A DNA stretch of 64,000 nt, from assembly GCA_026770025.1 (NCBI GenBank), contig JAMXDE010000028.1:62001-126000 (forward strand). The letters are read 5' to 3'. Both the position numbers and the translations under genes were made by a program. Below are positions 1 to 61,636 of the stretch, in pieces. Source of the stretch: Craspedostauros australis. Its lineage: Eukaryota > Bacillariophyta > Bacillariophyceae > Mastogloiales > Achnanthaceae. Below the pieces are notes generated by a model, which was given only the letters and a program-made list of their open reading frames with translations, made no database searches and had not been told where the DNA came from. Position 1 is the first letter of the stretch; each line of letters begins with the position of its first letter.

Positions 1-3000
1 GAGAGGCACCACCAAATATCCTTGGGTAGAATGGCTCGTAGAGTCGAGCAGAGTACTATTTTGCTCTAAAAGCATGTGCTTGCATGTACTGTGCGCACAA
101 TGTAGTTTCAGCGAGATAGTACGCAGACAAACAGGCACCGTCTTGTTCCCTGCCTTCCATAACGCCAAACCGTTAAGGCAAGACAAACCGTGTCTGTAGA
201 GGTGTGCTGCATGGTAGTATCTGTTTTGTCGGCGTTGGCCGTGTTCATCGCCATCCAGCGAAGCCCCGTGTTCATGTCTGGGTGCGCCCAAGTGTTCGCC
301 GTGACCCGTGTTCATCTCTGACCGTGTCCCGTGTTCATCTCTGACCGTGTCCCGTGTCCATCAAAATACGATTGCGTGCGAGTCGAGGATGCACGCAGCT
401 CGAACTCCACCACGAAAGCGATCATGTCCTCCACGATCTTGTTGGTTATGCCCAAGCGACTCTTGGAGGATGTAGCGGCAGTGGGAGCGGGATCGGAACT
501 GCTCTGCACCCCACATTGTACGGATTCGGCATGATCGTGGATGTAGCACCAAGGCTGGCTGGAGATGTGAAGGAAACTCACGATGAGGCAAAGCCATGAT
601 AGCATTTGGCTCAGAGTATTGGTAGAATACTCTGCCTACTCGCATTCACCCCACTCTACCGATGCTCTCATGAACATCCATCATAACTCGTACTTCTCTC
701 CTCGATGCATCACTGTTCGTGTCCCCACCCAAAGAGGGACGGCCACGATGCAACACTTTTCATTCGCCTGGACGGTGAGGAACGAGCAAATGCGGAGAAG
801 AGCACCACAGGGCCGACTTCACTCTTTGTGTGTTCTTGGAACCATCAAGCACACGCGAGTTAACGCAATTCCATCCGCAAAGGTTCTCTTCTGCTGCGCG
901 ATCGTCAACGTAGCTGACGCGCACTTTCTGATCTGTGGAAGTTCCGGGTTTCTGTTCCCACCGTGGTTGGTTTCGCAATGTTTGCGTGATGGGTACATTC
1001 TGTTTCTACGAGTATGAGACACTGGCTCCGAGCCACGAGTAAAAATACGACGCTGCCGTTTTTCGCGTACACACGATGGAGGCGGCGAAGTTTTCATCCC
1101 TCCACACAGAGTCGAGAGGGAACGGAATCGTAGATTCTGTTGGGCCATTCAATGGCGAACTCCTGTGTCAGGGAAGAACTGATACCCACAGGCACCGTTT
1201 CTTGTGATGCGAAGTCCTGTCGTACGTTGGTGGCCACGTGAAAGGTACCGTGTCTGCAACCGTCATCCCACAATTGTTCACACTCCCGTACTATACTGAT
1301 GATACACACTAGCTTCTCTATTCTGCGCACTGGAACGTGGAAACGCTAACACACCTCTCTCACGCCAACAACCATTCCACAGAGAGGTACCGATGATCAT
1401 AGTGGTACTTGTGCCCCAGAGACACTCTCACTACGTCACGATGACCGTGCGCGTGTCCTGCATCCGGGAGTGGCAATGACCATCAGCGACATAGCATGTC
1501 GATTCAGTCGGTATTGCGCATTCTCAAGGGGGATAGCAGGGTCGAAAATATCCAATGTTACCACAATTGAAACCTCTTGGCTGACGTTGTGACATTCCAC
1601 GTTCAAGTATGCAGGTACCGCGGAACTGATGGTCGTTGGCCAACGCCTGCAACGACAAGTGTTCATTGCTATTTATCTCTTTGTTCCTCAAGGAAGATCG
1701 GCATGGGTGAATTTGTTCATTCCGCACGAAGGATCTGTGTGGTGCTTTGGTGGACCGAAAACAGCGCCACGAGTGTCGCTTCTCGCCAAACCGCCCGCAA
1801 GAGTCCTCCACTTCCACCAGAGTATTGTGACACCAGAAACCGCGATGTGAGCATGATGGTCTGCCGGAACGAACGCACTTGTTCTCTCTCTCTCTCTCTC
1901 CAGATATGCGGTATGAGCACAAGTGCCTCCCTAAGCGTGTGAGTATGGCAGAGTAGAATAGGGTGCTCTGCTTTGCTCTGGGCTCTCTTGTTGGGTCCTC
2001 TTCGAGTCCTCGGTCTCTCAGTGGTGGTGGCGCTGGGGGTGCTCACACAAGGCCGTTTTTGTCTTTGCGTGGTTCGTCGTTTCTGTGGCTGCGTTTCGTG
2101 GAGTTTGGTGGAGCTCCATCATTTTGTCCAGATCAGGAATGACTGTTTTGTTACCGCGCACGAAGCGTTTTTTGCGTGCCGTCACACATGCGCGTGCGTC
2201 TTTGTGCGCCACGGTACCTGTACACTAATGGTTGAACGAAACGGCGACGCGCGAAGTGCGAATGATGAACGCGCGTTGGTGCGAACGAGGTACCAATAAG
2301 TGCTCGCGGGGTACTCGTGTGCGTGTCTCTTCGTTTGTCTGCTCGAGATTCCCAAACAAGAAGCAAAGCGCAAGAGTGGAGAACACGCAGAGAACATTGT
2401 CATTGTCCACGTGAGGCACAATCGGCGCCACGACCACATCCAACAAAGCGGCAACTGGAACCACAATGGATACTCGTGGTAATGGTACTCCTCATACACC
2501 TCCGTATGGTATGAACCCGTCAGACAGATGCGGCGAGACGCGATGCGATAGCGTCCGACAACAAGCGGTGCCAGTACTATGGCCTCAAGTGTGTACCACG
2601 CCAGTACGACCACAAGCAGAGCCTTCTTCACATGTTTCCAACATCAGGCACAGTGCTGGCAACCAATCTGTCAACCAATCCGGCAACAACAGCGGCAACC
2701 ACAGCGGCAACAGCACACACAACCGCTAAGCCGAAAGTGATAGAGTACATTGCCAAACAAACAATCCCATCAACTTCACACAATCACAACAGAACCACAC
2801 AACCGCCCGAATCTGAAGGAAAGCGCTGCCAAGGAAGTGAACTCAAGACCCTTTGCACCACCTTCAACCAAACATTCCCCCGCAAAGCACGAGGGAACGA
2901 ATCACCGACTCCTTCCCACTGCCATTGCCACTGCCGTTGCCATTACCACTGCCACTACCACTGCTCTTGCCATACTACTACAACTGTTATTACCACCACC

Positions 3001-3121
3001 TTCATCATACCCACGCGTCAGCACCTTCCTGCTCGTAACTTGTCAATACCAACAGATAACAGTTCGTCAGATCACAAGCAACTGCAACAGCAACAATCGC
3101 ATCAACAGCTACGACTATAAT
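1..3121. other. 5' flank of the window, no supported gene
   Basis: No open frame here shows a recognisable domain. Frames that stay open are low complexity or overlap on several strands. The stretch at 2630-3120 is rich in CAACAAC/CGGCAAC-type codons and runs open into the LRR gene, but the first good ATG of that gene is at 3122, so I treat this part as leader or promoter. A CT tract lies at 1881-1901. A hidden exon cannot be excluded. Confidence 0.5.
305..361. repeat. 23-bp tandem repeat, about 2.5 copies
   Basis: A 23-bp unit starting CCCGTGTTCATCTCTG occurs at 305-327 and 328-350 without a mismatch, followed by a partial third copy with one change. Looser relatives (CCGTGTTCATC) lie at 239-280. 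It is a short minisatellite with no visible coding role. Confidence 0.85.
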
Positions 3122-5191
3122 ATGACGGAATCAAGCCTCTCTGGAATGGCTCTCTTTGCACCGCGTGCGCATGGACAACCACAATCACAAACCGCATCGG
3201 GCTCAGCATCAGTCTCGACATTAGTCTCAGCATCAGTCTCGACATCCTCGTTACCATCACAAACCATGCCACGATCTAACTCCAAGCCCTCGGCGCCGCT
3301 CGACTATCGGTTCGATCAGTACCTGGATGGCGGCATCCTCTATCTGGGCTTCATGAATCTCACGGCATTCGACTTCAAGCGCATTGTGTGCGAGCTTTCG
3401 GACCAGAAGATTGATGTCAACGATGCCGACGATGCCAACAATACCAATACTGCCGATACTGCCGATATGAGAAAGCACAGCAGAATGGCACGGCACAGCG
3501 TCGCCAACGGTGCCAACGCCACTGATCACGCAGGTGATACTGATAGTGCAGACGCCACGATGACATTCAGCAATAGCAATGACAGCAGATCGAGCCACCT
3601 AGCCTGCCATCGCTCTACCAGCCGATCATCCCGATCTGCATCTTCTCGCACCAGATCCTCAACTTCGAACACGAATGCGACTGCATCTGCAACCGCGAAC
3701 ACCGACCTCGCGACCACTCGTAATCGTAATCGCACTCGCAATCGCAGGAGTTCCAGAAGCGCCAGAAGATCCAAGCACAACAGTCCCGGTGAGCCATCTC
3801 GTCAGAAGAACCAGAAGCTGGAACACGTCCTCCTCAAACTCAGGCAGAAGAAGCAGCAATGGATGAACTCCAACCTCAATCCAGACGAAACCGTCGTCCC
3901 CATCTGGAAGCTCAACATCGTGGGGAATCGGGAGATTGGCGATCGAGGCATGGCGTACCTGCCGTTCCTCCCGCCCACCATCTCGGACATCGATCTCAGC
4001 GACTGTTCGCTTTCGCCCGTCGGCATTAAGCTGGTCTGCCAGTTCCTCAAGAGCCGAAGGCAGGAGGAGGTGATAGCACCATTGTCATTGCCATTCCCAT
4101 CATCACTGCCAACATCATCGCTGCCAACGCCGGCAGGCAACTCCCAGCCATGCATCACGCGATGCATCATGTGGGGAAATCAAATCGGCGATGACGGCGC
4201 CAACCACATTGCGGACATGCTGGCGGCCAACACCACCCTGCAGGAGCTCTGCATCATGCAAGGCGCCATCGGCCCATTCGGTTACCTCAACATCTCCAAA
4301 TCCCTCATGTTCAACACTCACCTCAGGGAGCTCACCATCTACCATCGCAAGCTCACAGAGCTCCACGTTTGGGCCATGCATTGCTTCCTTGACAAGAACA
4401 AGGGCCTCGAATGCCTCGACATGTGGAGCGCACCGCCGCTCTCATGCCCGCTCGTCCAACAGCTCGTGGAACTGGTTCGCGCCAATCCAAACCTCAAGCG
4501 AATCAAGCTCGGCTACGACTACCCCGAGCTCAGATACTGGCTCACGCTCAATCGCTTCGGACGCGCCAAGACCAAGAAGGAGGATGCCACCGACGGCGAC
4601 TGGATGGAGTGCATCATGAAGGGCTCGCAGGCCAACAACCTCGATTCCGTCTTCTACTTTTTGCGCAACAAGCCGGAGCTCTGCGATACGGCCAGCAGCC
4701 TCCCCATCCAGATGAGGCCGGAGGCAGAGATCTCGCCTTGGTTGGGATCCGGCGCACTCAGCTCCTCCAGCACCAAGCGGCACCTCATCCAGACGTACCG
4801 CGCCCTCATGGTGCCCGCCATTCCACCGCGTCAGGCCAGCCAGAAAGCGGCCAACTCGGCACCGAACCAACCAGAAAAATCGGCAAGAACGGAGGCGCAG
4901 GCAAGTAGGAAACCATCTCGGCAGTCCATTGCGGCGCCCGACAACACCCAACAACAACCACAGCACAAATCTGCAAGAAAGGCAAAGATCCCGAGATCCG
5001 CGCTGGCACCCGTTGTCCCACCGCCCAAAAGAATTCGCTTGACGACCAGCGAAACGCCGCTGACCCGACCAGCATCGCCTGGAAAGGTCTCCGACATTGA
5101 CGACACGGATGAGGAGATGGACGATCGCAACACTGCAGCGCCGATTGGCCACGTCGACTTCAAGCCGCTGGACATCCCGGCCGTTTGGTGA
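3122..5191 (+). CDS. Leucine-rich-repeat (RNI-like) protein
   Basis: Single-exon gene of 689 residues starting at the first ATG (MTESSLSG); upstream in-frame codons are low complexity and lack an ATG. Residues about 55-75 hold a short conserved-looking opening (YLDGGILYLGF). A Ser/Asn/Arg-rich disordered linker follows to about 230. A leucine-rich region at about 260-480 contains several ribonuclease-inhibitor-type repeats, with phrases such as DLSDCSL and GNQIGDDGAN. It ends in YWLTLNRFGR, a closing motif I associate with stramenopile LRR proteins. The C-terminal 180 residues are Ser/Pro/Lys-rich with basic patches (KSARKAKIPRS, PKRIRL) that could be nuclear signals. LRR proteins of this kind are usually binding scaffolds; the ligand is unknown. 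It converges on the CCB gene. Confidence 0.8.
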   Translation: MTESSLSGMALFAPRAHGQPQSQTASGSASVSTLVSASVSTSSLPSQTMPRSNSKPSAPLDYRFDQYLDGGILYLGFMNLTAFDFKRIVCELSDQKIDVNDADDANNTNTADTADMRKHSRMARHSVANGANATDHAGDTDSADATMTFSNSNDSRSSHLACHRSTSRSSRSASSRTRSSTSNTNATASATANTDLATTRNRNRTRNRRSSRSARRSKHNSPGEPSRQKNQKLEHVLLKLRQKKQQWMNSNLNPDETVVPIWKLNIVGNREIGDRGMAYLPFLPPTISDIDLSDCSLSPVGIKLVCQFLKSRRQEEVIAPLSLPFPSSLPTSSLPTPAGNSQPCITRCIMWGNQIGDDGANHIADMLAANTTLQELCIMQGAIGPFGYLNISKSLMFNTHLRELTIYHRKLTELHVWAMHCFLDKNKGLECLDMWSAPPLSCPLVQQLVELVRANPNLKRIKLGYDYPELRYWLTLNRFGRAKTKKEDATDGDWMECIMKGSQANNLDSVFYFLRNKPELCDTASSLPIQMRPEAEISPWLGSGALSSSSTKRHLIQTYRALMVPAIPPRQASQKAANSAPNQPEKSARTEAQASRKPSRQSIAAPDNTQQQPQHKSARKAKIPRSALAPVVPPPKRIRLTTSETPLTRPASPGKVSDIDDTDEEMDDRNTAAPIGHVDFKPLDIPAVW

Positions 5192-47849: not shown

Positions 47850-50180
47850 GGTGTTGTGTTGTCTTCTTGTCTTGGTTTCTTGCCAGCTTGTCTCCTTCTG
47901 TCCTCCTCGTATACTCGTCAGTGTTCTTGAGTATGACTCTTGCGCATATGACTCCTGTGCCTGTGCGTGTATGTGCTGCGTGTACGCGTATGGTGGGTGT
48001 CTTGTTGGTTATCCTCCTCTGCGATCAGCTTGTCCTGCGCAGCGAAGTCGCAAGTGGACGGAGATTGTGGTCTCGGCGTGGATCTGTCGTCGGAACAATA
48101 ACACGAAAACGCGATGACTGCATTTCGGCATGAGTTGTCACGGTGTTTCTTGGTGCGTTGTGCTTTCTCTACCCCATGAGATCGCGTTGTCGTGTTGCCC
48201 GTACTCGTACTCGCACTGGGAGGCACACAGCATACAGTTCTGCCCATTCACACGCCCGTTCAACGAACGGCACAGGAGTAATTCTCGCGTGTGGGTTGTG
48301 CGTTATTCCTCACTTGGTGTCCTCGTACAATTGGTACGAACACACTCGTAGAAGCGCAAGGAAGCGCCACAAACGGCGGCGCATCTGTTGCCCCGTGTCG
48401 TACCCGTAGTAATTGTCCTTACGAATACTCCACTCTCCTTTACTCTACCTGTTCCTGCTACCACGTCTCTCCTTTTCGCTTTCGGAAGTACTTGTTGGAC
48501 GCGTCCACGCAGTTCTTGCGCACGAAAGCCACCACACCTGCGTGGTGCAATGTTCGGGCACATGACGCATTGTTACTCGGTGGACCTCACGAGAGCGAAT
48601 TCGAAATCGCTGACAAAAAGCAAGCAGTCCGCGCTTCAACAGACACAAACTCGGTACACTATCGCGCTTTGGGCCAAGGGAGCGAACGTGATCTATGTGA
48701 TACCCATATTACGCACAAGTATTGCCCAGAATAGAAAGCGCCTTTTCGCCTGGCGGGTTCGGATGTCGACTTTGTGTGTCGTTGGTGGGCGGTGCCGTTC
48801 GTTGGCCTTCGCGATGCGACACGTTTGCGCGCCCCAATGAAGTATCAGCTCCAATGCGAATTCAATCCAACAGAAACCATTGGGGTGGAATGGAGGTCGT
48901 GGTCGTGCTTGTTGTGAAACAAGAAATAGCCACAAAGACAAGGAGTAAGGATGAATCTGGCAACGGTAACGCACTCACGATCACGCCAACCGCTCAAAGC
49001 GCAAATATCACAAGGTCGACGGTGAGCGTACAAAGTCACAGATGTGCGCAATGCCACCACCCAAACACCGAGTAGCGAAATGTCTCTGGAAACCAAGAAT
49101 TTGACACTTATGCTGATGCTCGCATTGGGGGATCCGAGTTGGCGCAGATGGCGTCACAATGTTACTCCCGCCCGTGCCCATCTGTCGCCAAAGAAATCCC
49201 ACGGAACGCCGCCGCGGCGACATGCTCGCTGCGCACATGGAACGAGGAAGAGTAGTGGGACCTGTCCGTGTGTGCGCAAAAAGAACGATTATGGCCTCGA
49301 GACAGCGGCACCAACAAACGAATGCGCAGCGCCGCCCAGTGCATTTAACCTGGTGGCTATTTGTCTGTTGCGTCTGTTAATGGCGCCCAACGAACAAGTC
49401 AAGGCCAGTGTGGGTATGCTATCTACTTCTTTGGTACTCCTGTGAGTCGCAACACGCCGCAGTAGACATTTTCATGTTCGATTTGGAGGGTCGACTAGTA
49501 TTGTATCATCACAAATAAGAATAGTACGAAGCTGGATGAGTCGCGTCGAGTACAAAGGAACAGAGACCCGCGCAGATTCAGGGTCGAATTTTTGTCGCTG
49601 GATACCAAACAACAACAGTGCCTGGGCAACAGAACACCGAACCAAGGAGCTCGCGTCCCAACCTGATCCACCAACCAATCTCCCTTCAAGGATCTCGCAG
49701 CAGGCCAACACAACTCCACCCACTTTCGGGATAGTATTGCTTGACGTGGTGCTGATGCCATCGTCATACGACTAGGCATCTCCCTGCTGTGGTTCTGGGC
49801 TCCACTCCTGCACTCATTTTCGACTTGCGAATGGTTGGGCAGCACCAACCGTTGACGTGGTTGCGGTGGTGGTGATGTTCTGGCCTTTGGACATCTGCAT
49901 ACAGGATTACTCCACTTCGAACGGACATGAAGAAGGTCGCGTCAAGTACCCCAAGCTGCAAGGTACAGTTGGTCGCTGAGTGAAGCCGGTGCCAGCCTGT
50001 TCGTGGAGTTGAGTACGAGCGATGCGTAGTGATTCTGGTTCACAAAGAGCTATTTCAAGGCTATTGAAGAACTCATTTCGATTGAGTTTGTATCGTTTAT
50101 CAACACGCCCCTCCGGGCATGCGAGTACCGTGTTGGTCCTTGTATAGTGCACTTGTGCGCACCTTGCTTCTCCCTACTAG
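47850..50180. other. Intergenic region upstream of paralogue B
   Basis: About 2.3 kb between the paralogue B start and the left terminal repeat of the large element. Several 60-150 codon frames are open on both strands but overlap each other and show no domain. No gene is called. Confidence 0.45.
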
Positions 50181-50226
50181 CTGCACTCAATGTAAAACGG
50201 TGTCGCGATATCACTAGTTGTGGAGT
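50181..50226 (+). repeat. Left terminal inverted repeat of the 9.5-kb element
   Basis: 46 bp, 45 identical to the inverted right end at 59604-59649. Similarity stops beyond this on both the inner and outer side. Confidence 0.9.
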
Positions 50227-50330
50227 TTTGGCCCCTTGTTGCCACTGGTTTGCTTGCTTTTGGGAGAAACGGCGATTGGATATTTAGAGCTATTTCGTGT
50301 TTACTCTCGCTGATCCGTCTTCTACGTCAC

Positions 50331-53300
50331 ATGGAACGGATTCCACGTCATGAAAAACGAGTCACAACAGAGGAAGAGACATCGTGTGACTCCTCCTCCA
50401 CAAGACACGATGATGACTGCGCGCGGCAACAACAAAATTTGCCATGCCAGGACAGCCAACAACACTCCACGTTGACCAGTCTCACAATGGAAACCAGCAA
50501 CATCCAATCGTCTCGGAATTCGACAAAGCGCATTGACGAGCTGTCCGACGCAGACGAAACAGTAGCAGCACAAGCCGCAACCGCTGATGTCTACAATGAT
50601 GCAGACGATTCCAAATGCGAAGACACATCCTTCCTCACCATCGATCCAAAGGTCATCAATATCATCAACCGTGACAAGCTGGATTGTGATGCAGCGAACG
50701 GCTGCGAACTGCCAGAGGGGATGGATGCCAACAGCATCCGAGAATCGACCTTCTGCGACACGTTCCGTGGTTCCGCGAACTACACTGCCAACCATCCCAA
50801 CACCCTGGCTGTATTCCACATTCCAGGCAATTTGGGCAACGACGTCATCAAGTCCATGGATGTGGCGGATGAATGCCAAAATGTTGATCGGGCGCACCTC
50901 GTCGTGCAAAGCCAACTTCGAGTGGCCCACAGCGATCAGCCCATTCGAGAGGGTTACGTTCGCTCCTCAGCCCCATACATGTACAACTTCATCATGGAGC
51001 TGTTCGACTTTCATCCCAACACTCTGCTCAAGGTACTCAATGCAGGCCCTGGAACAGGATATCTGATGTGTCTCATGGTGTCCCTCTTCGGGCCTTGCTC
51101 AGCACAATATGGTAAGTGATGGTCGTGATTCGTCGCTCTGCTATGACATGCTTTGAAATGATGTGAGCAGGTGGATCTTCGCTCATGCACACCTGAATGT
51201 ATGGGCCCATGCCTGAATTCTTTCTTTCTTCTTTCTCCTCCTGTCTGAGCAACATGTTGAGATGGTGCAGTTTTTGAGCTGCACACCTGCGAATCACACC
51301 AGACACTAGTTGTCATATGATCGGCACCAAGTTCCCTTGCTGCACGACTATGTTCCTATCGCTTCTCACATCTAACTACTTCTTGCCACGTCTCGTCACA
51401 TCACAACACATCCCGCACCTGGTGCTCCATTCCTCCACCAAATCAAATGACATGCATTGAGCTTCAACAAGAGGTGGTTCAGCGTTGCCACGAGTCATTG
51501 CAAAGATGGACGCCAAATAATCTTGGAGCACAGAAGATTGATGACATTCATGTCATCCAGGCAACGCCCTGGAAATAGCCGCAGACAAAGGAGAGGCCCC
51601 ATTTGTGTTTGACCGGATCTACACCGGGCTGGTATCAATATCGCGTGCATATTGAAAATACAGAATCTCCTCAAACCAGAGACGGTATCTTCATCGCACC
51701 AGGTAGGTGCCATGCGGCGACGCTCATGACAAACGGTCTGTTGATAATCGCCCACAACCTTCACCACCATCCGTTCACCTGTTCAAGCCAGCACAGCCCT
51801 TCGACGGTCCATTGCTGTCAATTTGCAATGGGCCTGTTGCTCGTCACCCACTGTGCAATTATTGGAGATCATTTTGCTCTGTTCCTTGTGCGAAGCGAAC
51901 AGTGGACTGCTGTGCGCTGCGCCACAATGCCAACGCCAATTCACCACGATGCAATAGAATCTGACGCCTTGGTACCCACCTCTTGCTCTTCATCGTTGCA
52001 TTGCAAATGAACAACAAACGAACACATACTTTCGCATCATCCGAATCGATGCAACGATTTGAGTGGATGATGAATTCATCATGGTTTCGCGGAGGGACAA
52101 CTGTGTGGATCCATCTTCGGTGATCCCGCCGAAGACTCAAGGTTTCACAAACACTGTTGAATCCGCAGTCCGTTTCAGCGGAATGGTGGAAGATGCCCAT
52201 GGCACAAATGAAGTTGTCATCCTCAGTCGAATATGGAGCCGTCCTTATCAGCCACTACCGTGATAGCTTCCGAGAGCCGTTCAAATATCTCATGATGTGT
52301 GTCAATGCCAACGTCGTGCAGCCAATCGTGCCACAACCAGCACATCATGCCAACATTGCAGCTGTCCTCCCCAACGTCTCGTGGATGGAAATCGCGTCCT
52401 ACACACCCAAAGATTGTAAGTTGAGATCCAGAGAGACTCCAATTCTGTTTCAGGTGCCACTGCCTTGCCATCGCTGAGATTGCCTTCATTGTGTGAAGTG
52501 GGGGGATTCGAGATGTCGACCGAACTCTCATTCTATTTTCAAGATTTTGGCACTCTTCCCTTCACTTCTTCAGTTGTGCCGCATGTTCCCTCGCTTTCCT
52601 TTCTCACAAAGGACCCATGACTCAACTGCGCAACTTCACAACTCCACCACCATGTGTTCCAAAGACCTCATACCGAGGTTGAGATCCTCAAGCGGAGACT
52701 GAAGGAAGCGCGGCAGGAGGACCATGAGGCCAATGAGGCCCGTCCAGCAGCCGAAGTGAGGTATTGTATGGTCACGCAAGATCGGGATGTTCATCGACTG
52801 CTCGCTCGCGCTTCCAGTTGGCTTCACGCTAAATCAGATCCAATCTCTCGCGACAAGGTCGCCAGCAAGGAACCATGTCGAATATTCTGGACTACTGAGA
52901 GGTTGATTCACTCTTCGCAGATCAACACATGATCATCTTGATGCCAGAATGTCCAACCAATCCAGAGATTTCGACATCGGCGCGGACAGCTGCGGAGAGG
53001 AGGAAGACGATGACATCAGTGACAATGCGGGCAAACAAAACCTTTCCGGCGACATCGCCGATGTTGACATTGGCGATGACGAAAGTCATGTTGACAATGG
53101 AGATGGCAGAAGCTTGCAGGACGGAAGTGAGATGGATCAGGGATCCACATGAAATGGTCATGAACGAAGTAAGCATGGAGGCCAACGACGACAACAGCGA
53201 CGACAACAGCAGTGACATGGAATTTTTCGATCCATGTGAGCACATGTCCAACGATGATCTTTTCACATCCGGTGCGCCGATCAGCACATCTCAGAAGTTG

Positions 53301-53411
53301 CAGACACAAGCGCAGGCACAACAAGGCATGGCAGGGTCCTCAAGCACGCTGAGAGCCATCGCACATCGTCACCAAACAAGAGCGGCGTCGTTCTGCGGAG
53401 AGGACGGATGA
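50331..53411 (+). pseudogene. PCMT-like (L-isoaspartyl methyltransferase-related) gene, decayed
   Basis: First exon 50331-51111 (ATG, donor TATG|GTAAGT) encodes an acidic N-terminus and then REGYVRSSAPYMYNFIMELF and VLNAGPGTGYL, the PCMT opening and SAM-binding motif. Later pieces: TCIELQQEVVQRCHESL (about 51450), GNALEIAADKGEAPFVFDRI (51560-51620), DGIFIAPG (51681), SFREPFKYLMMC and LPNVSWMEIASYTPKD (52265-52415), then HTEVEILKRRLKEARQE (52670) and an acidic tail to 53411. The pieces need frame changes near 51560, 51679, 52250 and 53148, and the exon holding TCIEL has no AG acceptor in the 130 bp before it. A sequencing artefact could explain single-base losses but not the missing acceptor. 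The intact family would repair or sense isoaspartyl residues; its extra C-terminus resembles stramenopile PCMT-like proteins. Confidence 0.7.
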
Positions 53412-53882
53412 GGAGAATTCCACTTCCCTGCCGCACGCACATGTGCGTGTGTACTCGCACGAACACATGCTGGCACACAAACACTGAAGAACAGACGGAG
53501 GACAGAAAGGCCAACAATGAGAAGATATCTCGATCACATTGCATCGCCACGTATCGATGTGATCCGGAAACGTCATCAAGATAACAAATTAAGAGTACAT
53601 CTTCACACGTTACAATACGGTCGTGTAACAATCGCTTGCATCCTGTGCGGCGCCGCGCCTTGCCAGTTGTGCATTCTGGTACTTCCATGTGCTAGTATAG
53701 TATGATATGGTACCTTTGCCCATGACTTCAAGGGGGCATATCCGAAGATGAACCACACAACCTGACTGCAGTCTCAACCGCTCTGTCCAGACGTTCATAC
53801 GAGTGCACTTGCGTGCTCGTCGTTCAACTCGTCGAGTATTCTAAACTTGTCTTGTTCGAGGCCAGCTCATCGAGGAAGCGCT

Positions 53883-54149
53883 ATGTGCGAACTAAAACAA
53901 AGACTCGGTGATGCCATGCTTGGCTATCTGGAACGTCTGTGTCTGCAGGAGGGGGCATCCTGTATCTTCGTCTTCAGCACGCAGACGACGGAATGGTTCA
54001 TCGAATGCGGATTTGACGAGGTCGATGTCAGCTGGCTGTCACCCAGCCATCACAGCGCGTGCGATACCAAGCGCAACAACATGATATGCATCAAGAAGAT
54101 CACCAATGTTCGGGGTTTGGATGCTTCCGAACTGTGGTGGAATAGATAG
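53883..54149 (+). pseudogene. Truncated C-terminal fragment of N-acetylglutamate synthase
   Basis: A 88-codon frame carries the end of the amino-acid N-acetyltransferase (arginine pathway) GNAT domain: GDAMLGYLERLCLQEGASC, FVFSTQTTEWFIECGFDEVD and NMICIKKITNVRGLDASELW ending WWNR. The usual (E/R)RGF is ECGF here. Upstream there is no acetyl-CoA binding loop and no amino-acid kinase domain; similarity begins at about 53908. The fragment sits inside the 9.5-kb element on the same strand as the PCMT-like pseudogene. I interpret it as a captured exon; that it is expressed is unlikely. Confidence 0.7.
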
Positions 54150-54878
54150 ATTACACAAGAAAGGTGCAGTGGGTGCAATGGGCACAATGCATAGTCGTAT
54201 GTAACGTATTATAGGAGCTGCACTAGCACATCACATCACAACACAGCATAGTATAGCATACGAGCATTTTATGGTGTGTATTTGTTGCGCTCTGCTTTGC
54301 TCTACTCTACTCTACCAATACATGACGATTGTGCCAGTGGCCGTGCCATTGACAAGGCACCAACAGAGATGAATGATCAGAGGATGCATCGTTGGTGCTC
54401 CAGTGACGAGTACGGATGCTTGGACTTGATGGCAGCGAAGATCATGAGGGTTGCACATTTGTGATGAAAAGAAAGCGGAGTACTGGCATGGTACGATGTG
54501 GTACAGATATACAAGTGCGGCGACAACAGAGAGAAGCCTTTGCCATTCGATTGGTTTGTGCGACACACACCGATTGTGCTGGCGCTCCGATCGACGCAGT
54601 TGAGGCCTTGGAGCGTTTTGTGTGTGTGGTTCGGCTGGAATTTTTCCGACCAGAGCGGCACGACACAACGTGATGGCTCCACAACGCACACCATTCACGA
54701 CACAAAAATAACGGTCTGCGTCACAAAATCACATCACTCATCACAAAACACAAAACACAAAACAAACATCACACACCACACATCACAATCCTCCATGCCA
54801 TCCAACAGACGATGCGCACACGGGCACTCCAATCACAGGTGCGCCTATAACATATACTACTACTACTTTGATTTGCAG

Positions 54879-57428
54879 CTACACCTCTGCTGTGTTGGTA
54901 TCCTGCCCTGCTTTGCTGTGATGCTCGTCCTTGCCAGCGAACATGGCCACGTCGAATGTGTTCATGGCGGGTGCTGCTTTGGCTTTGCTATTGCTGTTGC
55001 GAGGCTCAATGATCTTGGCTTTGCTCTTGCTGGGTATCTTCTTCTTCTTGCCTTTCTTCTGGTGTTCAGCCTCCTCGTTGGCTTTGGTGGTCGCGACGAT
55101 TTGCTCCTCCAGCAACGGAATGAGGCTGCTGGTTGTTGGCAGGTTCGTTTTCAGGCACTGCAGAGCACTGATAGCCATCACCTTCAGGGCATCATTGTAC
55201 ATACCTTTCATGTCAGGCTTGGCATATTTGAAGCCAGCTGATTTGTCTTTCTTGCCTGTTGCAGTTGGTTTCTTGGTGGTCATGTTGGTTGCCTCATCAT
55301 CATCCTCCTCCAACGCGAAGTCCATGTGAGACACAGTCACACCGATCTCGTTGCCGTCCTTGTCAGTTTCAGTGAACGTTTGTTTCCGCACATTCATGCT
55401 CAGTCCCTTGCGCTCCGTCACAAATTCGTCACCTCCTTCCGCAGCACAAATTGCGTAGGCAATCTGATGGTGACGAACATACGCACGCGCCAGCTTGTCC
55501 AGCCCAAATTGCTCCCAACAGGTTTTGCAAGCTTCCCACAACGCATCAGTGGTGAACATGCGACTCCCGTGGTGCTTACCTTGATGTGCTGACACGTGTT
55601 TCGACATCGCTGGGAATATCGCATCGTCTTTCACGTTCGTGATGGGAGAATTCGATGGTTGAAATCGTAGATGCCATCCGCGACTGTCGAACTCCTCGTT
55701 GATGAACCTGAGTAGTTCCGTGTCTCTGTGTGGCCCTGCGCCATCCATCTGGTACCGAATCACCACGTTCTTGCCCGTTTCGTCCCTGATTTTGTTGGCG
55801 AGCGAATCCAGTGCGGGGAGTTCTTTTTCGCGGAAGAATTTCTTGAGGCTGTATTTCGGCTTGGGCTTATCAAGACGACCATCTGTTTCCTTGCTGCCTG
55901 TGATCTCCAGTGCTTGGAAGTACAGTTCACCCTTCACACGAGAGATTTTGTTGGGATCAGGAAGGTGCTTGTACTTGGTTGGCGAGACCCAAGTTCGCTG
56001 GTACGTATTCTTCTGCGCTGGGACCATGCGCCCAACACGTTCAAAGCTAACCCGATACGCCTTTCCTCCTTTCGCAAAACAGTTATTTGTTGGGGCGAAC
56101 GCTGTTGATGCAATCGCCATGGTCTTTTCGATGTGGCACTTGTGGTGCACAGCATGGTCAACAGGCTTAACTCCCATCTGGGGCACATGTTTGAGGTTGC
56201 GCCGAGCGACAATAGAGTAGAACCACTTTTCTTCCATGTGGACAACAACAACTTGCGTTTTCAGGAACAGCTCCGCTGATTCCCAGAACACACAGAAGTC
56301 CTTGGCCCACCTGTCGCGCTTCACCTTGATGTCGCCCTTGATCTTGGGGAGCATTGTTGTAGAACGGTAGTTGCTGCCCTCCAATCCCATCACGTATGTT
56401 CGAATGGTGTTCGCGCAAACGCATTGGACATTGCCCCTTCCTGCTAGTTCGCGTGCAATATCGTCCCACGAGATTGCGCCATTGCATCGTTGCAACACAT
56501 CCTGGAGCTCAAATTGCAGGAACGGACCACGCTCCAACCACGAATCAGACAGGGATTTTGCGGATGCCAGCTCTTCAGGAGAAGCAGAGGCATAGGCATA
56601 AGAGATGTCTTCAGGCGGCAACCGTTGTTGTGGATGTTTGAGCTGCAGTTGTTTCGCGAAGATGGCACGCGGCGTGAAGTATTGCTGTTGCTTCTTGGGG
56701 CAGGTGAAGATGGTGCTGCCTGCATCACTGCGCTTCTTCCGTTCCAGCTTGTTCTTTTGGAATTTCTTGATGTTGCTTGCAACAGTGGTGGCACCAATAT
56801 CCCAAGCATGGGCGATCAATTTCGTGTTGGCTGGGATCGCACCCAAGTTGAAGTAGAGAACGATGTAGTTGTGCTTGTCTTGCGTATCAAGTTGTTTCTT
56901 TCTATTGGTGGGCTTAGTGTTGCTACGCCCTCCATCCTTTCGCAACCATCCTTTTGTTTTCGCGCCTCTCTTCATCTGCTTGTTGAGACGGTCGATTGCT
57001 GTTTCCTTCTGCTGACGTGAGACCTCGAGAAAAGCAGCGATGCTGGCTTCTTGCGATTCCGTGGTAGTTGGGGATGGTGTGGGGGGCTTAGCCTTGTTGT
57101 TGACACGCACAGCAGCGACGGAGTGATGCTGGGGAGAAAGGAGGGAAGGCTTAGCAAGGCCACCAGCAGTGCGAGTCCGTGCGAAGGTAGCGAGGCTGTG
57201 TGGCGCGCACAGATCCTCACGAACAACATACATTCGGCTCTGCCCCATCACTGGGGTCACCATGACCATTGCCACCTCTCCTGGTGCAAGAGGCCCATCG
57301 CGTTTGACTGTAGCACCATCCGTGGTCTGCTTCATTGCAAACTCAACATGACATACGCCCAGGTCACGGAGCTTGCCACCTGAGCGTTGGTGGGGTGCCA
57401 CCTTCACACAATCACCAGCGCGCAGCAT
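54879..57428 (-). CDS. Mariner/Tc1-superfamily-like transposase, long uninterrupted ORF
   Basis: 849 residues from ATG 57428 with no internal stop. Middle and late regions show the DDE transposase fold: VVVVHMEEKWFYSIV, where the family usually has DEKWF; then YQMDGAGPHRDTELLRFINE with the second Asp; then FQPSNSPITNVKDDAIFPAM, where the family usually has NSPDxN. So the first acid is Glu and the third position is Ile, unless the following Asp pair takes over. Residues about 150-240 hold a helix-turn-helix-like region (IAHAWDIGATTVASNIKKF). Residues 1-80 form an extra N-terminal domain of beta-rich composition (GDCVKVAPHQRSGG) not typical of mariner. The tail is Lys-rich (KKGKKKKIPSKSKAK), likely nuclear. 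It belongs to a stramenopile-type branch by impression only. Confidence 0.78.
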   Translation of the reverse strand: MLRAGDCVKVAPHQRSGGKLRDLGVCHVEFAMKQTTDGATVKRDGPLAPGEVAMVMVTPVMGQSRMYVVREDLCAPHSLATFARTRTAGGLAKPSLLSPQHHSVAAVRVNNKAKPPTPSPTTTESQEASIAAFLEVSRQQKETAIDRLNKQMKRGAKTKGWLRKDGGRSNTKPTNRKKQLDTQDKHNYIVLYFNLGAIPANTKLIAHAWDIGATTVASNIKKFQKNKLERKKRSDAGSTIFTCPKKQQQYFTPRAIFAKQLQLKHPQQRLPPEDISYAYASASPEELASAKSLSDSWLERGPFLQFELQDVLQRCNGAISWDDIARELAGRGNVQCVCANTIRTYVMGLEGSNYRSTTMLPKIKGDIKVKRDRWAKDFCVFWESAELFLKTQVVVVHMEEKWFYSIVARRNLKHVPQMGVKPVDHAVHHKCHIEKTMAIASTAFAPTNNCFAKGGKAYRVSFERVGRMVPAQKNTYQRTWVSPTKYKHLPDPNKISRVKGELYFQALEITGSKETDGRLDKPKPKYSLKKFFREKELPALDSLANKIRDETGKNVVIRYQMDGAGPHRDTELLRFINEEFDSRGWHLRFQPSNSPITNVKDDAIFPAMSKHVSAHQGKHHGSRMFTTDALWEACKTCWEQFGLDKLARAYVRHHQIAYAICAAEGGDEFVTERKGLSMNVRKQTFTETDKDGNEIGVTVSHMDFALEEDDDEATNMTTKKPTATGKKDKSAGFKYAKPDMKGMYNDALKVMAISALQCLKTNLPTTSSLIPLLEEQIVATTKANEEAEHQKKGKKKKIPSKSKAKIIEPRNSNSKAKAAPAMNTFDVAMFAGKDEHHSKAGQDTNTAEV

Positions 57429-59603
57429 GCTTGCAACGTGAAGAGTTCAGTGGTTGCAGGATGATACAACTACGTCCAATGTGGGTGAAGGTTGATAGAA
57501 CTGTGTTATTGTGTGTGCTTGTTTGAAGTGATGGTTTACAAAGTGAAGTTTGTTGAGATTATGAGCTCATCAATAAGTGCTCATCATCTTCCTGTTTTCT
57601 ACTTCTTGGCCCCACTAATGGTGCTATTCACCATTGTCCATCGTGTTGTAACCATGCCAAACTGCTGGTTACTCCTGCTAATTAGTGTATCTGTGTCCAA
57701 ACATGTGCTATGACACATGTTTGGAGGTCTAATAGAGTCTCTTTGATCCTCTTGGATCATCTTCCTAATTTTGTCTTGGGTCTGAAACCCGCATCACATT
57801 TTCCGAATTCTTTCGAGTCGTTTTCTTGGATCTTTCGAATCGAAGTGTGATTGACACAAAGGACTCAAGACTCGAACAACGATTGGATTGATTCAGCACA
57901 CATGGTCTAACAACAAGGGAACTCATGGTGAATACTAGCTGTGTGCCAATAGAGGTTGCAAGCTGATTGTACAAGATTGGCTGGTCATGACGCACACCAG
58001 GCACACAAGGAGAACAGCACAGCACAGCACAGCACAGCGCATCACCAGTCATTGACGCGCAGCCCAGCGCAGCGCACCACAGAACGGCATGGACAACACA
58101 GGAGGATGGTCACAAGGTGCCTTGTACCATCCACTCTTTCCTTTGTGGGAAGGTCACAGTCATTCTACATTCTGTGTAAGCTATGACTACAAGCAGCAGA
58201 GAAACAGGAGGAACTCGTTTGAGATGCGCTGTGTTTCCTCTGTCAACTTTGTGAGGAGGATTTTGTGCCTCCGCTGTGTCGTTGTGGAATGGATTCGCAA
58301 TTCGGGACTCGCAAAGTGTTCTCATTGGTTGGCACATTCGGTAGAATTGTGGTTAATTTCCATGGCCCCCGACAGCAAAAACTGTTTGAGAACACCAAAC
58401 ACAACACAACAACATGACAATGGAGAAACACAACAAAACTCCTCAAGCGCCGCCGAACGGCATCATCGTCACTGCAGCAACCAGCGGTCCATTGCAAGAT
58501 CCGAGGGCATAGGCGGAACCGCCATGTAAAGATTGGTGGATGAGCGAGAGGGTGATGCCGGAGTGGTTGATTTGGGGCCGTGGCAGGCCCACGCGCAAGC
58601 GACACGATTCAGAGGAACATCTGCTCGTTGGATATGGTCTCTGCCTGGAATGCACAGGCCATTCCAACGACTATTGATGGGCAAGACGCATCCAAGAGGA
58701 TACGATGAAGATGCACACGAAGTTTGAGGGTCGGGGGTGGCCTGGAAGGTGCCCTCCGCAAGAAACAAGTGGAGGGCAAGAGTTTTTTGGTGGGTGGCGG
58801 CGGACACACCACGTGACTTCGCTCGTGATGGGTGCCATTGGCAAGTCACCCAAATCGCAAAGCCACCCATACAAGATGTGTTCGGAATCAACTCAAGATG
58901 ACCAGGGCGGAGCCTTCTCCACGGATACGGTCTGTAAGAGGCTGCAAGGTGGGATGCACACAAAATGGTTTTTTTTTGGTATCGCAAAAACTCCATGGTG
59001 ACATCAGCACATGGAGGTGTACCTTTGGAGGTACGAACTCCCAACCCATTCTGAACACATCAGTGTGTCGCCAGAGAATGTGGGAACGCATGAGGGGCAT
59101 GTGGAGGAGCTGCAAGGATCGTATCGACGAGATACGGATCCAAATCCGAATGGCATCAGCATCGAAATCGTGTTTTCAAAATTTCTGCTTTTCAGTGCAG
59201 GGACAGTTTGGAGTATGAGATGCGGCTATCCGTGGAGAAGCTTCATGGGATGGACAGATGGGGGGTATGCGGAGCTAATGTGGTGCGCAGATTGTGAAAA
59301 TGCCAGGGATGATAATGATGATCATGGGTGCTGAAGGGAGGGCAGCATGGTGCCATCGAGAATTTTTCGCACCCACCACCTGACAGACAGCAAGCCAAAA
59401 CGACATTAAAAATAAAGTGCATACAAATTTAACTTCAATATTCAGAATCACTGATAGCCACTCGTCCGGATGCACTGTTTATTTTTAATTTTAAACGATG
59501 TGTTGTTGAGATATAACATCATAAGCAGTTGTTTGGATGGTTTTGGATGTGCTCTAATTTAGTCTACTTTATCACGACTCATCACGAGTAAAACTCAAAA
59601 AAC
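57429..59603. other. Non-coding right part of the 9.5-kb element
   Basis: About 2.2 kb between the transposase start and the right end. It holds a perfect hairpin at 57696-57725, CACAGCACAGCACAG repeats at 58015-58040, and G/C-rich stretches at 58690-59300 with open frames in both directions but no domain. A T9 run occurs near 58970. The last 250 bp are A/T-rich. Confidence 0.5.
57696..57725. repeat. Perfect 12-bp-arm hairpin
   Basis: Arms TCCAAACATGTG and CACATGTTTGGA with a 6-nt loop (CTATGA), about 270 bp upstream of the transposase ATG. It may be a transposase or regulator binding site, or a relic end of a nested element. Confidence 0.85.
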
Positions 59604-59649
59604 ACTCCACAACTAGTGCTATCGCGACACCGTTTTACATTGAGTGCAG
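59604..59649 (-). repeat. Right terminal inverted repeat of the 9.5-kb element
   Basis: Inverse copy of 50181-50226 with one mismatch. Confidence 0.9.
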
Positions 59650-61636
59650 GTCGTATCACTCATCGCTCGCTTCATTGTTCATTGAAGGTACATGTGTTCT
59701 ATTATGCTCTGCCTGCTTGTGCAAGGAGGCGCGTGGCTGATCCAAGATCAACAGGCTTAATACTCGTGTGAGTATTTCAATGGACTAAAAATTGGTCGGA
59801 GCATCGCCAAGACACGCCTGGAAGCACCGCTCGAATGCATCCATGGCTCGTACGGCAGAGAAAAGCGCGGATCGTCCTGTTTGCGAAATTTTGCTTCGCG
59901 CACATTTGCGCGCTGGTGCTTCCTGTTGTCGCAGCTCTCGTGTTAGTATGAATGAATGGTGCTGGGCGCACTGTGGCCCATAGCATCGTATAATGCTCTT
60001 TTTGCCATCCAGAACACGAGCAATTCATCTATTATACCACGCAAGTTGAATCGAGAATGGCGCTTGTGCAAGTTGGGTGGCGTACGGTAAACAAGGAACG
60101 TGTCAGGAGATGAATACGGAAAGAATGGGAAATGCGGCTTCTTGGCGGTGGTGACAACCTTCAGCCCAATCCCTTCACGATTTTCCAGCTTGCACAGCGC
60201 AGGAGAGGAGAACGGAAGTCGCAGGCACATTGACCATGGCGGCTGCACAAGAACACCAGCTACCGCCGCCGAAACAGGAGCGGCGACCCGGCTGTCCTTT
60301 CTTGCCATGTTCGTACACCCCTCGTTCTCTCCACTCCGGTGATGCCTCTCCTTGCGAAGCAATGTGTGTCCACCACAGACAGAAATCACCCATCTTTGCG
60401 ACGCGCAGCTTCATGCAGTGTACACTATTATATGTTAATGTAGTATAGTCGATCGTGTGTGCGTTTGTGCGTGCTGGTACTGGGTTTGTGGTGGCACTCG
60501 CATTCTTGCATTTCTGTTCCTGTCCCTGTTCTTGGCCTCTCTATCCGTATCACTGCAAGTCGGCGAGCCCGGTTCCGCCTCTGCTCATGGATAACAATTC
60601 TCACCAACATGTGTCGATCAAAGCCTTCACTGCACCTGTGATCTTCATCTGCACGGAGCGCCATGTTGGTGCTCATGTTGGCGGATGTGGGCAGAACACA
60701 GCGGAGTCGAGTGGAGTAGATTCCAGTACCCAATTGCCGGAATGGACGATACTGTTCCTTTTCGCAGTTCCCCACCCTTCCCAACGATCTCAGTTCGTGG
60801 GGGCATACGACCCCATTCAGGATACGATAGTACATTCTTGCCGATTTTTAATTTGAGGACCGATATCATCCTATTATGTTGTGGAGGGTACATCTGTGAA
60901 ATATTAGACGCCTGGACCTTATAGTTAAAAAGTTTATATTTTTCGCATCAATCTACGACTACAAACGAAAGGCATGCGGACGCAGAAGGGCAAATTGTGT
61001 TGGGAATCACCAGTCGTGCTTCAGCTTGCTGTCCAGTCGTGTCCTTGATCGACAGACTCACATTTCGCGTGGGGAAGGCGGTTGGGTGCGAAGAGATGTT
61101 GAGGATTGCCCGGTAGCAGTAGGCATGGTGATGATGATGCTTCATCTGGGCTGTGGATCAGTGGTCGAAATCCAGAGTTGTGGGTTGGTGGGTAATCCAG
61201 ATCTTCACCCCCGCCTTGACTTTCACACTGCCTTGTTCTCGGTTCTGCTGCCGTTCATGCCCTGGGACGTTGAGCTTCGTCCATGTCTCAATCAGCACAC
61301 ACTGCCTTCCCTCCACATGCACACTCTATCCCTTCATTACCCAGAGATAATTCGCTATTATATCGTATATCTCGACACCGTGTAAATTTTTGAACGCGTT
61401 TGTCCTACCGCGGCCAACGTGAAAACTAAATCAGTACCATCGTTTACTAGTGCTATCGTTGGGAGCCACTGAATTTTTGTTTTACTATACTTCGTCACCT
61501 TCCATGGTATATACCCCAATGGTCTTTGCAGACATGGACTCTACACAAGCTGCAGATCCGTTTGACCCTCTTGGGAGTGTTTTCTTCTAGGCCAGTAATG
61601 TTTTGTGGCCTTCAAGTAGCAACAATATTGGCAAAG
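59650..61636. other. Intergenic region between the 9.5-kb element and the piggyBac remnant
   Basis: About 2 kb without a supported gene. At 61446-61458 the 13-mer ACTAGTGCTATCG repeats a part of the right terminal repeat (59612-59624) in the same orientation, which may be a diverged element end. Confidence 0.45.

Follow-up and report, generated by a model that had tools for sequence, protein, structure and literature searches.

We analysed a 64,000-nucleotide stretch of the genome of the diatom Craspedostauros australis (contig JAMXDE010000028.1, positions 62,001 to 126,000; hereafter the window), which contains a 9.5-kb DNA element at window positions 50177-59653. The element belongs to a multicopy, mariner-like transposon family that appears to have serially captured pieces of at least four host genes, a reading to which we assign a probability of about 0.88 on sequence evidence. 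The window copy carries remains of two of them, an N-acetylglutamate synthase gene (NAGS) and a PCMT gene; other copies carry a gene for a Cys-rich protein (CYS) or part of a gene with a very long frame (the giant gene). The initial annotation of the window had proposed a DNA transposon with taken-up host genes, and recurrent copies, empty insertion sites and donor genes elsewhere in the genome support that proposal. In most cases of gene capture by cut-and-paste transposons only the end product is visible: small fragments inside elements unable to move themselves. Because this single genome holds cargo-less forms, donors and overwriting steps in transposase-encoding elements, sequence comparison can recover how and in what order the genes were captured, and the outcome lends itself to experiment.

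A multicopy element family inserted at TA

To define the family, we searched the 74.8-Mb assembly (90 contigs; C labels denote contigs and L labels fetched loci). Counts from these searches are lower bounds, with only the best candidates scored: 40 of 175 for the left 120 bp, 40 of 219 in a second copy search and 53 of 215 for the transposase. All 40 scored matches to the left 120 bp were significant, and seven of them, the window included, were 100% identical. The window copy and its closest counterpart, L016 on C1, are 99.98% identical, with 2 differences in 9481 bases; L011-L015 match the window copy at 98.8-99.7% over the aligned parts.

The two 46-bp inverted termini reported initially, with one mismatch (50181-50226 and 59604-59649), were confirmed, and they extend to an inverted repeat of 55 nt at 93% when the bordering TA is included (50175-50229 and 59601-59655). 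We assembled 18 units, namely the window and 17 others with paired ends, among them a C77 unit that is a composite of two elements. The left end reads TACTAG in 17 of the 18 and the right end GTCGTA in every one, indicating a TA target duplication and moving the element boundaries outward to 50177 and 59653, with 53-bp inverted repeats and a TA outside both ends. The check for a target duplication at copies, suggested by the initial annotation, thus returned a TA. This duplication and the terminal inverted repeats are features of Tc1/mariner elements. Assignment to Helitrons finds no such backing, given the inverted termini and the TA and the lack of a Rep/helicase Pfam match among eight window frames.

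Joined flanks from 14 copies were then used as queries for empty sites (best 40 of 179 candidates scored; 46 matches listed). For three of the 14 pairs we recovered uninterrupted 140-bp counterparts, located in repeats elsewhere: at least 11 places for L021 (best 100%), a repeat at at least 32 places for L022 (C4:1187388-1196870; best 99%) and at least two places for L024 (97%). These empty sites demonstrate insertion between TA for three copies, and the ends of the other copies support it. An unrelated pair of element ends that trapped ordinary host DNA by chance would account for what one window shows, host genes flanked by termini; the 9.5-kb unit recurs elsewhere, enclosed by the same termini and bordered by TA, and family copies have empty sites, which contradicts this explanation and leaves it extremely improbable. 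Duplication in the assembly was rejected on the same recurrent TA-bordered copies and empty sites. The identity between copies further suggests that the family was recently active, in line with the earlier view that near-identical termini signal fairly recent activity.

Host donors of the captured genes

Donor loci for all four captures are present in the same genome, one being found per capture. The NAGS donor on C24 is an 891-aa frame with AA_kinase and GNAT domains, and the PCMT donor on C2 comprises frames with NAGSGTGYL and GNAL motifs separated by non-coding DNA. The CYS donor on C13 is a complete 919-aa frame, Cys-rich and with PT repeats, whereas the giant-gene capture lies inside a frame listed as 5037 aa (C24:285198-287918, L043); its 901 captured residues gave no Pfam match. 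Captured NAGS is 89.3% identical to its donor over 2384 bases in C31, captured PCMT 81-84% (76% for a remnant in L019), captured CYS 87.6-92.1% and the giant-gene piece 95.5% over 3602 bases. The CYS capture includes the entire donor frame with about 260 bases before it and 166 after. Comparison of the cargo with parental genes, as the initial annotation had advised, therefore places the donors elsewhere in the genome, and no element end was seen at any of the four loci in the 4.0-6.5 kb read at each.

The reverse history, in which the genes originated in the transposon and the host later domesticated copies of them, could draw on the excess of cargo copies over donors, with one donor found per capture. 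However, the donors continue across the tested junctions and, in the case of NAGS and the giant gene, exceed the cargo in length; the captured CYS piece has many further relatives in the host; and the PCMT cargo shares its frame breaks among all covering copies. We consider such domestication very unlikely. The CYS relatives comprise 72 further host matches at 41-48% identity, with frames of 538-1571 aa, and evidently represent a large host family.

Layered captures and their order

Comparison among copies revealed a series of forms differing in their left part, described here by donor positions. Cargo-less units are represented by L018 and C20. In C31 the left part holds NAGS unbroken from 2566 to 4934 (2.4 kb). 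In the window type the middle of the captured NAGS is replaced by a 2.9-kb PCMT gene with introns: NAGS runs to 2974, PCMT from about 2241-2250 to 5160, and NAGS resumes from about 4290. In the L019 type a complete CYS frame has in turn replaced most of NAGS and PCMT, such that NAGS to 2700 is followed by CYS 644-3826, a 280-bp PCMT remnant (4882-5160) and NAGS from 4286. The remnant beside CYS establishes the capture order NAGS, PCMT, CYS. The giant-gene type forms a branch separate from the window type, with nearly all NAGS replaced; in C51 the 3.6-kb giant-gene piece follows the first NAGS bases and is succeeded by the NAGS 3′ flank from 4582.

PCMT cargo was found at 14 loci. Protein matches place whole NAGS at eight, including C31 and C33, whose sequence was read. 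Giant-gene cargo occurs at 11 loci besides the donor, six of them adjoining a left end found with the 120-bp query. CYS cargo occurs at about 45 loci. This count comes from 123 matches and excludes the donor, five second pieces and the 72 matches at ≤48%; it may still include a host paralogue, at C13:1189566. Similar identities pair the NAGS loci C33/C72, C31/C38 and C10/C64, a sign that some contigs of this assembly may be duplicated or allelic.

All four captures have the same orientation, reading away from the left end, which with four events may be chance, and two of them are joined at the same NAGS junction region. The cargo-less L018 was considered as a plain ancestral form and rejected: its left end resembles that of the cargo-less C20 while its transposase falls inside the window clade, so that L018 is probably a recombinant.

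Two other copies bear on the range of forms. L033 (C9:25000-31000, 1581-4167) is a shortened form, likely non-autonomous, that retains part of PCMT exon 1 and has no matched transposase region. A further copy on C7 (L044) starts as the CYS type and continues into DNA without identification.

Cargo of the window element

The initial annotation had described pieces of two unrelated host genes, PCMT-like and an N-acetylglutamate synthase tail, on the strand opposite the transposase. Both genes and the strand assignment stand: the PCMT-like piece matches PF01135 (E 4.7e-08), the NAGS tail matches its donor locus, and the cargo lies on the plus strand with the transposase on the minus strand (Table 1). 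The implied independence of the two pieces does not hold, because the element had taken up NAGS before PCMT was placed inside it. A NAGS 5′ piece, missed in the first reading, lies to the left of PCMT. BLAST places that piece at 50463-50831 in the window, and homology to L022 and C1ins sets its start at 50423. Within the PCMT piece, window positions 51191-51340 have no match in the host C2 locus.

Table 1. Features of the window element and the evidence for each (window positions)
Feature	Position	Strand	Evidence
TA target-site duplication, left	50175..50176	.	TA outside 17/18 left ends; empty sites for 3/14 flank pairs joined at single TA
Left terminal inverted repeat, starts CTAG	50177..50229	+	55-nt 93% repeat; copy comparison
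Open frame joining NAGS 5′ piece and PCMT exon 1	50220..51119	+	299 aa from GTG, 307 aa stop to stop; PF01135 E 4.7e-08
Left element spacer, captures to its right	50230..50422	.	Common with cargo-less copies to about 50369
Captured NAGS 5′ piece	50423..50831	+	Host C24 locus L031 2566-2974, 81-83%
Captured PCMT gene, introns and 3′ flank	50831..53909	+	Host C2 locus, 81-83%
Captured NAGS 3′ end and downstream flank	53907..54561	+	Host L031 4295-4934
Transposase open frame, 849 aa	54879..57428	-	Residue 399 Glu; Asp562 and Asp601 presumed catalytic
Right element spacer	57429..59600	.	Present in compared copies, gapped in some
Right terminal inverted repeat, starts CGAC read inward	59601..59653	-	Repeat and copy comparison
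TA target-site duplication, right	59654..59655	.	GTCGTA in 18/18 units

Several one-base gaps break the PCMT frame and are common to all 13 copies that cover them (C9 is without those exons), indicating that the gene was broken before the recent expansion. This bears out the earlier remark that the cargo is decayed and explains how near-identical ends coexist with decayed cargo. The NAGS 5′ piece and PCMT exon 1 persist as one 307-aa open frame in 8 of 8 window-clade copies at 98-100% identity; in the six other PCMT loci the match falls into two pieces in different frames.

We further tested the cargo for selection, using one mutation spectrum estimated from the decayed PCMT region and few sequences. 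CYS cargo fits neutrality in 4 of 4 pairs (p 0.29-0.58; one pair is donor versus copy), as does giant-gene cargo in the single pair available, donor versus copy (p 0.41). The cargo thus behaves mostly as a passenger, and that of the window is a decayed one. For captured NAGS, selection to the benefit of element or host could be argued: between two element copies the nonsynonymous fraction is 0.61, where 0.71 is expected (p 0.03), with no stop where 2.5 were expected (p 0.08); comparing the donor with C31 and C33 yields 0.59 (p 0.0009 and 0.0002, the donor's own constraint included); and five of eight whole-NAGS loci lack an in-frame stop in the listed pieces. Nevertheless, selection between element copies amounts to one weak test on two copies, C31 and C33 each contain one frame change in NAGS, the window type has destroyed the gene, and three element pairs of the NAGS 5′ piece yield ratios of 0.46, 0.95 and 1.43 from few changes. 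NAGS as selected cargo is accordingly improbable in our assessment.

A conserved transposase frame

The open transposase frame reported initially is present on the minus strand (54879-57428). It recurs in the assembly: of the matches scored (the best 53 of 215 candidates), 42 contain no stop, and all 18 with at least 92% identity are among these. Copies encode 848-850 aa. Three transposase pairs gave nonsynonymous fractions of 0.49, 0.52 and 0.57, below the neutral expectation of 0.71 (p 1.3e-05, 1.6e-05 and 1.2e-07), signifying purifying selection in all three, and dN/dS is 0.27-0.54 in the 14 of 15 pairs that permit its calculation. As read from these substitution patterns, the frame is maintained by selection. 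Together with the ends, the copies and the empty sites, this suggests that the family transposase moves the elements.

No transposase family in Pfam matched the window protein or four relatives, and a PDB sequence search gave no match. Motifs picked out by eye (VHMDEKWFY, QMDGAGPH and QPSNSPxTNVxDD), together with the TA target, are what we take to mark mariner-like enzymes. The label mariner-like applied by the initial annotation therefore agrees with the target and these motifs and finds no confirmation in profile matches. Among viral contigs, ten pattern matches to transposase relatives were obtained and none was confirmed.

Across 22 copies, Asp562 and Asp601 are kept in all, with 38 residues between them, and residue 399 is Asp in 21, being Glu in the window alone. 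This Glu at the presumed first catalytic Asp makes the window transposase probably weak or dead as an enzyme, while the window termini and its near twin L016 look sound.

Two copies, L025/L026 (C1:2494352-2510669) and L027/L028 (C2:1371524-1390199), are interrupted by insertions with long frames containing an RVT_2 reverse transcriptase, as in Copia-type retrotransposons.

Exchange of modules between lineages

The transposase tree of 22 copies places CYS cargo both in the window clade (L019, L020, L021, L024) and in a distant clade with C31 (C49, C2b). Cargo labels of transposase copies were assigned by distance along the contig, and this typing predates recognition of the giant gene, so copies typed as carrying none include C51:306331, which adjoins giant-gene cargo. 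The left 4 kb of L019 are 89-96% identical to C2b and only 49-55% identical to the window between 0.5 and 3.5 kb, whereas its right 4.5 kb are 91-99% identical to the window and 79-92% to C2b. Cargo and transposase modules have evidently been exchanged between lineages.

The outermost ~28 bases of the termini (window 50177-50204 and 59626-59653) fall into two or more types: the window element and L019 share one, C31 (L034) and C2b (C2, L039) another. Terminus type follows transposase clade in the copies read, and both ends differ together in C2b.

A broader interpretation, which we offer tentatively and consider less probable than not by a clear margin, is that a transposase-bearing mariner-like lineage serves as a standing gene-acquisition platform. 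Its fixed left part would repeatedly accept whole or nearly whole host genes, and recombination would swap these cassettes among transposase lineages in the manner of phage modules, with NAGS perhaps kept in frame for a while.

How the captures may have arisen

We interpret the element as a mariner-like DNA transposon of the cut-and-paste kind, with a transposase still encoded and a left part that host DNA has overwritten repeatedly. A break inside the element, for instance after excision, would start a capture; repair would copy from the element, switch to a host gene and switch back; and the new form would then multiply through the transposase of the element itself or of a relative. Template-switching repair is the mechanism we somewhat favour. 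Cargo that retains introns and flanks implies copying at the DNA level, and such DNA-level copies with introns, the replacement of internal sequence and the sharp junctions all fit template switching. Capture through mRNA was rejected for PCMT, in which the non-coding parts between exons are retained. Published models for capture invoke gap filling or replication-fork switching (PMC8277862) or, for plant Pack-TYPE elements, fusion of neighbouring insertions (PMC8903248); here and below, published work is represented by excerpts of the papers cited.

Under neighbour fusion, elements inserted on either side of a host gene would be mobilised together by their outer ends. Besides being the published model for Pack-TYPE elements (PMC8903248), it gains plausibility from local nesting in this family, since C77 is a composite of two elements. 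Fusion predicts internal termini or elements near the donors, and neither was seen: donor segments abut element or older cargo directly at the compared junctions, with no internal terminus, and the donor stretches (4.0-6.5 kb each) show no element match outside the captured part. Moreover, the PCMT and CYS captures replaced earlier cargo rather than merely adding to it. Fusion therefore seems an unlikely origin for these captures.

Several observations weigh against serial capture by an active mariner-like element and template switching. No empty site appeared for 11 of the 14 flank pairs among the 46 matches listed (best 40 of 179 candidates). The transposase class has no profile match in Pfam and none in the PDB sequence search, the window's own enzyme may be inactive, and present-day activity is judged from copy identity. 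At two junctions, about 35-40 bases of filler are unassigned. Words of 3-7 bases are shared at seven junctions (4-6 bases at all four left-hand junctions), and against a loose random-breakpoint control of 2000 draws only one of the seven exceeds expectation (J5, matched by 26 of 2000), the other six being matched by 211 to 1996. Microhomology as proof of template switching was thus not upheld.

Relation to known gene-capturing elements

The family resembles Pack-TYPE elements, including rice Pack-Mariner, in enclosing DNA of host genes within inverted termini flanked by target duplications, in being multicopy and in containing more than one gene per lineage, as in a maize Pack-PIF family with pieces of 163 bp and 58 bp (PMC8903248). 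Pack-TYPE elements are described there as non-autonomous, so a carrier that encodes a transposase falls outside the definition; unlike them, the carriers here keep a constrained transposase frame (stop-free in 42 of 53 scored copies, constrained in 3 of 3 pairs). Capture size also differs from the cases excerpted, at 2.4-3.6 kb each and including a complete host reading frame. In animal Pack-TIRs, for which gap filling and template switching were proposed, microhomology was reported at one or more breakpoints in 67.6% of cases, and only four cases (1.4%) were multicopy (PMC8277862). In contrast, at least eight loci were found for each of our four captures, with the reservation that some of those bearing NAGS may represent allelic pairs.

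Full-length gene capture is described as exceptionally rare in Helitrons, as in Pack-MULEs, and one survey contained no Pack-MULE above 7 kb (PMC6431247). Host coding sequence in non-plant DNA transposons has parallels in Turmoil-1 of C. elegans and in Pyrenophora transduplication (PMC2572040, PMC3538342), compared at the level of title and abstract opening. Overall, the family is different from known carriers in combining multicopy, transposase-bearing, serial and large-scale captures.

With plant mariner-like elements the family presumably shares the TA duplication and motifs of the VHMDEKWFY, QMDGAGPH and QPSNSPxTNVxDD types. It is unlike them in its 848-850-aa protein without a Pfam transposase match, its 53-bp termini and its length of 5.3-9.5 kb. 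The catalytic triad of plant mariner-like elements is DDD (PMC4054914).

Titles and abstract openings in the open-licence literature yielded no such gene capture by a DNA transposon in an alga. These observations add a silicifying alga, and elements of 9.5 kb, to the range of large serial gene capture. The algal host suggested by the initial annotation agrees with 61 LHC-family (light-harvesting) matches and 88 matches to the silicon-transporter family PF03842 in the genome. Along with the PT-repeat proteins, these matches point to a stramenopile that is photosynthetic and uses silica. Thirty of the 88 span positions ≤4 to ≥504 of 513, and 28 of these 30 are stop-free (for example, C11:710408-712021 and C9:2024068-2025684).

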